In this document: positions 15,420-60,640 of the stretch, piece by piece
Numbering within the stretch: position 1 is the stretch's first letter
Layout of the letters: each line of letters opens with the position of its first letter
Assembly (NCBI RefSeq): GCF_017939745.1
Contig: NZ_JAGKQQ010000001.1
Span: 3,348,001 to 3,412,000 of the forward strand
Direction: 5' to 3'
Length of the DNA stretch: 64,000 nucleotides
Source of the DNA: Gemmata palustris
Lineage (GTDB): Bacteria; Planctomycetota; Planctomycetia; Gemmatales; Gemmataceae
Program-made: the position numbers and the translations under genes
The notes under the pieces: model-generated
What the model was told of the DNA's origin: nothing
Seen by the model: only the letters and a program-made list of their open reading frames with translations
Databases searched by the model: none

Positions 15420-15507
15420 AATTCGTTCCGGGGGATCGGGGCGCGAACAATCGGAGTTTTCTTACGGTTCGCGGCCCCTCCACGCAACGAAGTTGTGCCT
15501 CGCCCGT

Positions 15508-15858
15508 GCCGGTCGCAAGTCTCGGTGCTTGCGTTGGTGGTGGGTTCGTGTACGCTGTGTTTCGTTCTCGTGGTCGGTTTAGCTCGGTGCCCTACACCAG
15601 GACGATGTTGCGTCGTCCGAGCACATTCCACCACACCCTGCGCGGGGACCGCTGTTCCAGCACCGCTTTCGGAACTGTTCCTGAACGTTCAGGAGCGGGC
15701 TGGATCATCCCCGCTGATCGTGGTTCCGCTCCTGAACGTTCAGGAACAGTTCCGGCGGTGCCGCGAGCGCTCCGCGCCCCAGGTCGAATAGTAGACGCCA
15801 TGAGAACGCACCACGGGCCGAGGAGCAATCCCCGGCCCGTGGCGTTTTGCATCGGAAG
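15508..15858 (-). ncRNA. Structured-RNA-like dispersed element, copy 1 (unknown class)
   Basis: Aligned with 16920-17319 it shows conserved segments and helices. A terminal GC-rich hairpin lies at 15811-15842. An outer helix pairs 15660-15666 with 15755-15761, enclosing a perfect 28-bp stem (15671-15698 with 15726-15753) and a 27-nt loop containing CTGGATCA. A three-way junction at 15582-15622 contains GGACGA/TCGTCC and GGTG/CACC helices. GCAAG/CTTGC pairs near 15514-15532. Flanks, loop and junction are similar to copy 2; the 28-bp stem is unrelated in sequence. Minus strand is preferred because two copy-1 differences are G-U wobbles there but A-C mismatches on the plus strand. No open frame is conserved. 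Retron-like or mobile-element RNA are possibilities only. Confidence 0.6.
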
Positions 15859-15875
15859 AAGCTGCGAGGTGCCGA

Positions 15876-16133
15876 TCAATCCACGCCCAAATCCTTGATG
15901 AATCGGGTCGAGGGGTAGATGCGCTCGTACTCAACGGCAAAGTAGTCGGCGACGATCCGCCGCACCTTCAGCGCCACCTCCGGGTTGGTTCCGGGCGAGC
16001 AGCGTGCCAGAAACTCCGCGTCTGAGATTGGGGGGAAGCGCTCCTTGAATGCGTCGCTGCTTCGTTTCGCTGCGACGATGGCGCCAACCACAGTGGCGAG
16101 AACGACGGCCGCAAAACACATCTCCGGAATCAT
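15876..16133 (-). CDS. Small membrane-anchored protein with acyl-carrier-like C-terminus
   Basis: 85 residues. One hydrophobic segment at about 4-22 (EMCFAAVVLATVVGAIVAA) is followed by a soluble part. The end (VRRIVADYFAVEYERIYPSTRFIKDLGVD) resembles the first helix and pre-helix-2 loop of acyl carrier proteins, where a DSL motif normally follows with the phosphopantetheine serine; here the protein stops at VD, so the attachment serine is absent. It could be a truncated carrier-like domain or a distinct planctomycete family. The stop is 18 nt from the end of structured element 1. Confidence 0.5.
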   Translation of the reverse strand: MIPEMCFAAVVLATVVGAIVAAKRSSDAFKERFPPISDAEFLARCSPGTNPEVALKVRRIVADYFAVEYERIYPSTRFIKDLGVD

Positions 16134-16201
16134 CGGATCACCTCCCGAATCAGCTCACACGACCGAACCCGACACAGCCTACCGCCGGCGCTCCGCTTCC
16201 G

Positions 16202-16876
16202 CTACTCCTTGCCGAGCACGAGGTCGATGACCCAGCACCCGCGCACGTGCGGCCCGTCGTTGCGGCAGTGATCGAGGACATCGGCGCTATCACACCCTGC
16301 GTCCTGGAGCGCGTCGGCGAGGATCGGCATCGCGCTGAAATCCCGTGATTCGTACATTTGCGCGGCCAACGCGACCGCCGTGGAAATGCGCCACGAAGGG
16401 GAGAACGTCACGGAGCGAAAGGGATTCCCGAAGACGTCGCGCAGAACGTGAGCCTGAAACGCGACTTCCGCACTCGCCCGCGAGAATGCACACTCAGCCC
16501 ATTCCTCGTCAACCGGTTCGTCGTCCGTATTGAGTGCCCGCGCAGCAAATTCCGTGGTGATCGTTATGTTGCCCGTATTGAACGCGGATACGGCCCCGCG
16601 CGCGTAATATTTTCCCGGCGGCGTTTCCCAACGGTGGTTCAGGAGGCGCCCTGCCATCCGCATGAGGTCGTCCTCTTCTTTCCCGCTGGTTCGGCCGTCG
16701 GCGCGCCGTTCCAGTAACGCCAGCATGTGTTCGTAACTATCTGATTCAAGCAAGTGGTATACGCGCAAACAACAAGCGAAACCGAATAGCCTCTTCTTTC
16801 GGATCGTCGTCTTGATTTCGAGAAACTTCGTTAGCGGCGTCGGGTCGTCGCACGCGAGCCATTCCGCTTCGGTCAT
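16202..16876 (-). CDS. MTEAEWL-family protein of unknown function, intact copy 3
   Basis: 224 residues: N-terminal motif MTEAEWLACDDPTPLTKFL, a two-cysteine motif near residue 35 (FGFACCLRVYHLL), a variable middle, then VLRDVFGNPFRSVTFSPSW and the conserved tail (MPILADALQDAGCD, VLDHCRNDGPH, RGCWVIDLVLGKE). No signal peptide or membrane segment is evident. The tail is shared at protein and DNA level with 1198, 2027, 18021 and (tail only, diverged) 57929. The region upstream of the start carries a motif also found ahead of 18764. I know of no assigned function for this abundant Gemmataceae family. Confidence 0.8.
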   Translation of the reverse strand: MTEAEWLACDDPTPLTKFLEIKTTIRKKRLFGFACCLRVYHLLESDSYEHMLALLERRADGRTSGKEEDDLMRMAGRLLNHRWETPPGKYYARGAVSAFNTGNITITTEFAARALNTDDEPVDEEWAECAFSRASAEVAFQAHVLRDVFGNPFRSVTFSPSWRISTAVALAAQMYESRDFSAMPILADALQDAGCDSADVLDHCRNDGPHVRGCWVIDLVLGKE

Positions 16877-16900
16877 TGGTTGCTCTCTTGGGAACGGCTC

Positions 16901-16920
16901 TCAGCATGACCGATTCGGCG
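16901..16920 (-). promoter_or_regulatory. Conserved upstream block of MTEAEWL-family genes
   Basis: CAGCATGACCGATTCGGCG (plus-strand reading) lies 25-45 nt before the start of the 16876 gene. A near-identical block lies at 18788-18807 before the 18764 gene, at similar spacing. This suggests a shared promoter or leader. Confidence 0.4.
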
Positions 16921-17319
16921 CCGGTCGCAAGTCTGGGTGCTTGCGTTGGTGGTGGGTTCGTGTAGGCTGTCACTTTCCCGACCGGCCCTGGCGGTGCATG
17001 CGCTCCGCTGGGCGGGCCGGTCAAAGTTCTCGTGGTCGGTTTAGCTCGGTGCTTTGCACCAGGACGATGTTGCGTCGTCCGAGCGATTGCCACGCCATGC
17101 GTCTCGGGGAACGCTGTTCCAGCACCGCTTTCGCGGCCGCGAACAACTTCGCGACGGCGGACTGGATCAACCTCGCCGGTCGCGGTTCCGCCGTCGCGAA
17201 GTTGTTCGCGGCCGCGGCGGTGCCGTGAGCGTTCCGCGTCCCAGGTTCAGAAGTAGACTTCACGGGAACGCACGCGGGCCGGGGATTGTCCCCCGGCCCG
17301 CAGTGTTTTGCATCGGAAG
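16920..17319 (-). ncRNA. Structured-RNA-like dispersed element, copy 2 (unknown class)
   Basis: Counterpart of 15508-15858. A perfect 29-bp stem pairs 17133-17161 with 17187-17215 around a loop with CTGGATCA, inside outer helix 17122-17128/17217-17223. The three-way junction is 17044-17084 (GGACGA/TCGTCC and GGTGC/GCACC). The terminal GC hairpin is 17274-17301. The 29-bp stem shares no similarity with the 28-bp stem of copy 1, although sequences on both sides are conserved. Copy 2 also has an extra helix absent in copy 1 (GACCGGCCC 16980-16988 with GGGCCGGTC 17014-17022). No conserved open frame was seen. It lies between two minus-strand genes. Confidence 0.6.
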
Positions 17320-60445: not shown

Positions 60446-60640
60446 GGGCGAACGGCCGGTGTCAGCCGGCCGGTGAGAGCTACACACGGTGCCACCTGCA
60501 CCGTTGCGGGGCGAGCACCGGCAACGATGAGTGATCCGGGGTTGGCGCCGCACCCACCGGCCGGCTGACACCGGCCGTTCGCCAAGTGCCGCGCTCGCGG
60601 GGTGATGCGCCACCGGCGGGCTCACGCCGCGCCGTTCGCC
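60446..60640. repeat. R7 hairpin repeat cluster
   Basis: GGGCGAACGGCCGGTGTCAG and CCGGCCGGTG at 60446, mirrored at 60554 by CACCGGCCGGCTGACACCGG and CCGTTCGCC. A third degenerate arm ends at 60640 (GCGCCGTTCGCC). It occupies the gap before the 60668 gene. Confidence 0.7.

Follow-up and report, generated by a model that had tools for sequence, protein, structure and literature searches.

Two retron-like msr-msd RNA genes in the window

The DNA analysed here as a whole, referred to below as the window, is a stretch of 64,000 nt from Gemmata palustris (assembly GCF_017939745.1, contig NZ_JAGKQQ010000001.1, positions 3,348,001–3,412,000). A sequence-only reading of this DNA had described two structured elements with a three-way junction, an outer helix and a common loop, and a check of sequence and fold found all of these parts in their places (Table 1). 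Both elements are confirmed as real, and sequence comparison places them among the solo members of a retron-like msr-msd RNA gene family. The long stems of the two copies are mutually unrelated and each is perfectly paired, as had been read; given at the time as 28 and 29 bp, each proved one base pair longer (copy 1, 29 bp; copy 2, 30 bp). The "added helix" that had been assigned to copy 2 proved to belong to a separate palindromic repeat, which also occurs elsewhere in the genome (three in a row in locus L030, and close to other family copies in L029 and L042).

The two copies matched the family covariance model R1 with E values of 5e-67 and 3e-71, scores that are high by construction. A weak R1 match, covering only the hairpin part, was also seen at 60450–60580 (E 0.0015). 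As to signs of an insertion element, synteny with two relatives (genomes G008 and G010) ends at 15499–15501, 7 bp before position 15508, and their continuing sequence, i.e. the far side of a possible insertion, was not found in the window.

Table 1. Parts of the two RNA genes and adjacent features (window coordinates).
Feature	Position	Strand	Basis
Copy 1, retron-like msr-msd RNA gene	15558..15811	+	extent by covariance model R1
Copy 1 promoter-like site TTGCGT-N16-TACGCT	15529..15556	+	sequence read and family-wide signal count
Copy 1 a1, end-helix strand	15564..15574	+	alignment and covariation, 11/11 pairs changed two-sidedly
Copy 1 predicted priming (branching) G in TTAGC	15582	+	family motif count; motif as in PMC6868368
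Copy 1 msr three-way junction with two hairpins	15582..15622	+	alignment and covariation
Copy 1 msd domain, outer helix P5 to P5′	15642..15777	+	alignment and covariation
Copy 1 hypervariable stem, 5′ arm	15670..15698	+	sequence pairing
Copy 1 apical loop, conserved, 27 nt	15699..15725	+	alignment; column counts in 133 copies with an 86-nt hairpin, where loop length is a consequence of hairpin length
Copy 1 hypervariable stem, 3′ arm	15726..15754	+	sequence pairing
Copy 1 a2, end-helix strand	15797..15807	+	alignment and covariation
Copy 1 terminator-like hairpin and T run	15811..15848	+	sequence read and family-wide signal count
Copy 2, retron-like msr-msd RNA gene	17020..17273	+	extent by covariance model R1
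Copy 2 promoter-like site TTGCGT-N16-TAGGCT	16941..16968	+	sequence read and family-wide signal count
Separate GC-rich dispersed palindromic repeat in the promoter–a1 interval of copy 2	16970..17025 (ends approximate)	+	not a family part
Copy 2 predicted priming G	17044	+	sequence and family motif count
Copy 2 hypervariable stem, 5′ arm	17132..17161	+	pairing; the stem recurs unchanged at a G010 locus unrelated to this one
Copy 2 hypervariable stem, 3′ arm	17187..17216	+	sequence pairing
Copy 2 a2 strand	17259..17269	+	alignment and covariation
Copy 2 terminator-like hairpin and T run	17273..17309	+	by eye

RNA architecture, covariation and transcription signals

From 5′ to 3′, the family layout consists of a promoter-like site, strand a1, the sequence (T/C)AGC, a three-way junction that carries two hairpins (the loop of the second msr hairpin being TGTTGCG), the long outer helix P5, the nearly invariant helix P6 (GCACCGC/GCGGTGC), the hypervariable stem P7, a conserved loop of 27 nt and strand a2. 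In many solo copies, a terminator-like hairpin follows a2.

The structure was assessed in an alignment of 31 copies (A1), which was also the source of R1. It comprised the 32 copies found by a motif search minus L049 (disrupted stem), with L036 re-bounded; three partial copies were left out, and the motif search missed diverged copies. In this alignment 94.0% of 2198 cells were paired, compared with 69.4 ± 0.6% after shuffling and 35–44% in slid controls. Two-sided changes were found in 49 of 71 pairs overall and in 26 of the 27 pairs of P7; P3, P4 and P5 each showed them as well. Helix a1/a2, which had the lowest share of paired cells among the seven helices (74.4%), changed on both sides in all 11 pairs. 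Compensatory changes, on which the earlier structural proposal depended, are present outside the hypervariable stem too. At A1 columns 90 and 223, a P5 mismatch was noticed by eye, mostly G-G or A-A and seemingly changing together.

Counts across the family were made on a set of 146 copies from 18 genomes, for which at least 20 of 27 stem positions had to be paired; half copies were excluded from all counts. This threshold removed 7 of 153 candidates; at least four of these (L023, L039, L049 and L051) do belong to the family but carry an indel or have a stem that is broken. Just inside a1/a2, TAGC or CAGC occurs in 138 of the 146 copies, in agreement with the retron priming-G motif as defined in PMC6868368, and the msr motif GATGTTG in 144. 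The family therefore has the overall plan of a retron RNA, namely complementary 5′ and 3′ ends (a1/a2), a priming site, one to three msr hairpins and a long msd hairpin.

Promoter-like sites were detected in 75 of 146 copies (5.4 in shuffled sequences, none in 133 control stretches). For terminator-like sites the count was 80 among the 133 solo copies (1.2 after shuffling, one in 131 control stretches) and one among the 13 operon-head copies, by eye the one from Zavarzinella. These calls follow simple consensus rules, by which 71 of 146 copies are without a promoter-like site and 53 of 133 without a terminator-like site. Judged from these signals, many of the solo copies appear to be small transcription units in their own right.

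Distribution of the RNA family

A BLAST search with copy 1 returned 38 pieces in its own genome, while copy 2 matched 20 of 59 genomes (its own included), among them 17 of the 19 genomes of the genus. Outside the genus, copy 2 matched G028, G053 and G055 once each, weakly so in G053 and G055 (1e-5 and 3e-4). Among the best 50 candidates, R1 gave 28 matches in the G. palustris genome, and among the best 50 of each genome it gave 7–37 in 17 of the 19 genus genomes, G. palustris included; these counts are possibly low (one genome rose from 33 to 35 when 150 candidates were scored), and the lists include a few weak antisense shadows of strong matches. The covariance model search that had been suggested for finding further copies thus revealed relatives elsewhere in the genome and across the genus. 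R1 matched none of 22 genomes outside the genus, a set without G028, G053 and G055, and gave one to six matches in each of ten tested genomes outside the expanded group.

Matches to Rfam remained below threshold, with none above the curated cut-off. Plasmids searched with copy 1 and phages searched with copy 2 were without a match. Half copies exist in the family, and one copy (L043:3969-5856) is split inside the hairpin by an insert of ∼1.7 kb, which contains a 435-aa frame and further hairpins. An autonomous element with a gene inside its hairpin was considered for this locus and rejected, as the frame is by eye neither a transposase nor a reverse transcriptase (RT) and the insert resembles a later insertion.

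A family RNA heads a type XIII retron operon

The sequence-only reading had noted a likeness to retron msr-msd RNAs and the absence of an RT from the window. Six RVT_1 proteins are encoded in the genome, none at 3348001–3412000. The gene for one of the six (L072) closes an operon located 2.2 Mb from the window, in the order HEAT/ARM (1097 aa), HEAT/ARM (∼2300 aa), SWIM (621 aa) and RT. PADLOC assigned these genes to HEAT-ARM_XIII (1174 and 2103 bits), SWIM_XIII (622) and RT_XIII (528). A family RNA lies at the head of the operon on the same strand, so that, by gene content and RNA model, the genome contains, away from the window, a complete type XIII retron operon that begins with a member of the family. 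The RT carries the motifs NALVH, YADD and VTG, which correspond to the retron RT motifs NAXXH, YXDD and VTG given in PMC6868368. The retron likeness is now backed by this linked operon, by the covarying a1/a2 and by the priming site.

The window copies have no HEAT-ARM, SWIM and RT_XIII genes beside them. Solo copies without RT and effector genes lack the cassette that defines a retron; an RT in the same cassette was found only with the operon-head copy.

A same-strand head RNA was found in all 12 genus genomes whose examined region reaches the operon head, and in four further genomes the contig ends before it. The first gene starts 22–78 nt after the RNA in 11 of 13 listed cases, and nearer to it or overlapping it, by the chosen start, in the other two. 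The two Zavarzinella loci (L173 and L262) have the identical order with the RNA, their genes matching at 56–58% (HEAT/ARM), 71% (SWIM) and 69% (RT). The operon RT co-occurs with the RNA in 16 of the 17 RNA-bearing genus genomes; in the remaining one (G015) it was not found in the one region examined, which has another RT. In the two genus genomes that have no RNA (G012 and G017) the operon RT was not found, and their single RVT_1 match is 29–31% identical to it. No linked family RNA was found within 12 kb of the other retron-like RTs of the G. palustris genome (L070, L071 and L073). Linkage and co-occurrence point to the operon RT as the partner of the family RNAs, and L070, L071 or L073 could be the real one. 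On the second contig, an RT matching PADLOC RT_UG37 (DRT) was also observed (L074, G000:C2:616322).

Queried with the first HEAT/ARM protein, named genomes yielded 56 loci, mostly from Planctomycetes and Myxococcota, with relatives also in a gammaproteobacterium and an Acidobacteriota bin. An R1 match (E below 1e-18) was located 5′ of the first-gene relative in 32 of these 56 loci by hand count, some of the 56 having little or no upstream sequence; at L303 and L313 the RNA lies 1.5–2.5 kb upstream. One operon-head RNA (L306:2138-2455) has a low-complexity stem of AAGGTAAA-like tandem repeats. A BRCT domain suspected by eye in the first HEAT/ARM protein stayed under the Pfam threshold (12.5 bits, cut-off 21.3). 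The predicted structure of the SWIM protein had a mean pLDDT of 45.6.

The hypervariable stem as an exchangeable cassette

The hairpin segment is 86 nt long in 133 of the 146 copies. The stem is perfect over 27 bp in 124 of the copies kept, a share that is somewhat flattered, since the dropped candidates include family copies that are out of register. Among 3942 stem positions, 3909 were Watson–Crick pairs, three were G-U pairs and 30 were mismatched. The scarcity of G-U pairs is not special to P7, P3 and P6 being likewise without them. The 146 copies contain 135 different arms, and two different arms match on average at 10.7 of 29 positions.

The behaviour of the stem was followed in 44 orthologous pairs with homologous flanks on both sides, which are not independent, as many involve one and the same copy. 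The stem was common to both members (28–29 of 29 positions) in 13 pairs, unrelated (at most 16) in 30 and intermediate (21) in one. Selection on pairing and not on sequence, as proposed earlier, is borne out only in part, in that stems are kept base for base in those 13 pairs. The outcome that had been named as contrary to that proposal, insertion of an unrelated palindrome at the same site, occurs in part, as the whole stem is replaced in the 30 pairs, but it does so as a family-wide rule. At L147/L244 an identical stem was retained at an orthologous site while the flanks drifted to 80.7%. No two of the 12 operon-head stems are related (66 pairs; average 11.1 and maximum 21 of 29), not even those of G. 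palustris and G008 or G010, despite RT identities of 96.7 and 91.5%.

Matching stems were also found away from orthologous sites. Among the pairs not classed as orthologous, 23 match at 24 or more of the 29 stem positions, although L036 with L195 and with L211 may be orthologues with short flanks. The P5/P6 flanks of stem-matching pairs are no closer than random (0.794 compared with 0.790 ± 0.058), and the loop is somewhat closer (0.89 compared with 0.78, 10 pairs). The hairpin of copy 2 recurs without a change in a G010 copy whose site is unrelated, and the G008 orthologue of this G010 copy has a different stem in surroundings that are 0.85–0.98 identical by segment. Among 15 chosen pairs compared segment by segment, identity in L010/L064 was 0.85–0.98 outside the hairpin and 0.56 within it, and in L040/L162 it was 0.80–0.92 and 0.48, respectively.

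Several pairs match mainly in the basal half or mainly in the apical half of the stem, which therefore looks modular. In 19 near-identical stem pairs, 50 of 54 differences were base pairs replaced on both arms (hand count; the pairs overlap). Small palindromes are enriched in the arms, with a score of 5.17 compared with 3.55 ± 0.12 after shuffling (65 distinct arms from 72 hairpins). Because the stem is kept at some orthologous loci and replaced whole at others, it is an exchangeable cassette and not a freely drifting paired sequence. At the level of the compared sequences, the msd hairpin of most copies is such a cassette, 86 nt long, self-complementary and rich in palindromes.

Possible function and alternative explanations

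We consider it probable that the window elements belong to a family of retron template RNAs that are dispersed as solo genes, and that an RT acting in trans would make varied DNA hairpins from them, perhaps as anti-phage baits. The constant msr, the varied msd and the single co-occurring RT suggest that a set of msDNAs is made in trans. The one operon-encoded RT would recognise the constant msr of all copies and prime from the G of (T/C)AGC; the products would be msDNAs of roughly 160 nt, a length guessed from the msd domain, differing mainly in the double-stranded stem. The near-absence of G-U pairs in P7 fits, if weakly, a stem that pairs as DNA. With less assurance, we propose that the HEAT/ARM/SWIM proteins may guard the hairpin set, that each stem may be a bait of different sequence for a phage protein that binds, methylates or degrades DNA, and that stem turnover might let the set outpace phages. 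For other retrons, PMC12409349 and PMC13158370 describe the release of a toxin when a phage protein modifies, degrades or binds the msDNA; a varied set of palindromic double-stranded stems would broaden the range that is sensed.

As a possible route of turnover, an msDNA might fold back, complete itself on its own template and then convert another copy via the common P6; fold-back, self-completion and conversion would account for both the perfect pairing and the exchange at P6. A more far-reaching form of the proposal, which we put forward tentatively and with some doubt, is a DNA-based immune repertoire, in which one RT and dozens of solo RNA genes would yield combinatorial stems from two exchangeable palindromic half-modules, renewed by moving whole cassettes between loci.

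Alternatively, the perfection and variety of the stems could be a by-product of DNA metabolism, with template switching at hairpins perfecting imperfect palindromes whose sequence is neutral. The both-arm replacements (50 of 54 differences) speak for this, and the small internal palindromes are an expected remnant of fold-back copying; the hairpin length, which is 86 nt for 133 of the 146 copies, and the identical stems retained at L147/L244 despite the drifted flanks speak against it, and we regard this explanation as unlikely. Somewhat less likely still are selfish satellites, in which the solo copies would be non-autonomous retro-mobile elements that spread by means of the retron RT and the stem would serve only for packaging or priming. 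In keeping with this are the dispersed copies in their dozens, the half copies, the copy split by the 1.7-kb insert and the end of synteny just before copy 1, as is an old retrotransposition proposal for Nannocystis cited in PMC6868368. However, many copies occupy orthologous sites across genomes (the 44 non-independent pairs), and stems swapped between alike flanks (L010/L064 and L040/L162) are not a pattern that movement of whole elements produces. A mobile element, one of the options of the sequence-only reading, is less likely in its purely mobile form.

The other option raised there, a guide RNA, belongs to a class of explanations in which the RNA itself is functional and its double-stranded stem is cut by RNase III into guide or antisense RNAs. 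Long perfect stems do resemble small-RNA precursors, and the best sub-threshold Rfam matches were microRNA precursors, far below the cut-offs. The two window stems, however, had no other match in their own genome at up to three mismatches, nor did their cores have any exact match in viral contigs, so that for these two stems the variable part matches no target in the manner of a CRISPR-like guide. Such a function would also offer no explanation for the landmarks of a retron or for the linked operon, and we hold a function of the RNA itself to be highly improbable. The reading that we prefer remains that of template RNAs for a set of msDNAs.

Comparison with known retron systems

Retrons as a kind, type XIII and duplicated msr-msd sequences in Nannocystis were known already; we take as new the dispersed solo RNA genes in such number and the exchange of cassettes between them, no account of which was found in the open-access papers searched (a set that does not include the 2020 retron classification). 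In the usual view, a retron is a single cassette, with one RNA, one RT and one effector as a unit. In the present family, unlinked template genes with swappable stems (7–37 model matches per genome) stand beside the one operon. If all of these were reverse-transcribed, the cell would contain a collection of DNA hairpins that differ from one another, which would be a new bacterial route to diversify a nucleic-acid sensor.

Ec86 (Eco1) shares with the family a TTAGC priming site, two msr hairpins and a GATGTTG-like motif. One RT of the G. palustris genome (L069) is related to Ec86 at 2e-42. Ec86 differs from the family in being a single cassette. Known msd stems generally contain mismatches or wobbles, according to PMC6868368. 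Perfect, mutually unrelated long stems with a constant CTGAATCGACC-like loop are also found at second type XIII-like RT loci of the genus (L104, L110, L111, L112 and L114), each with one to three such RNAs near the RT; these differ in being seen only near the RT and in having another loop, usually with 27 bp around 17 nt.

A close likeness by genes is to type XIII retrons (PADLOC RT_XIII, HEAT-ARM_XIII and SWIM_XIII), since the operon-head RNA of the family sits in such an operon. That type is named by its genes; in the present case, a single operon goes together with many RNA genes that are not linked to it and whose msd stems are exchangeable.

For Retron-Nex1 (Ne160) of Nannocystis exedens, PMC6868368 describes several apparently duplicated msr/msd repeats with no RT within a kilobase. 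With R1, two tandem family RNAs were found in each of the whole genomes of N. exedens DSM 71 and N. poenicansa (E about 1e-45), and no family RNA was detected at the Nannocystis HEAT-ARM loci. The tandem RNAs of N. exedens DSM 71 are likely the published Ne160, to judge from its description. Two tandem copies in that strain contrast with dozens of dispersed copies here. If our proposal is true, it would likely answer the old question of the repeated msDNA-like sequences in Nannocystis and would be a natural example in which many templates are copied into many DNAs by a single RT.
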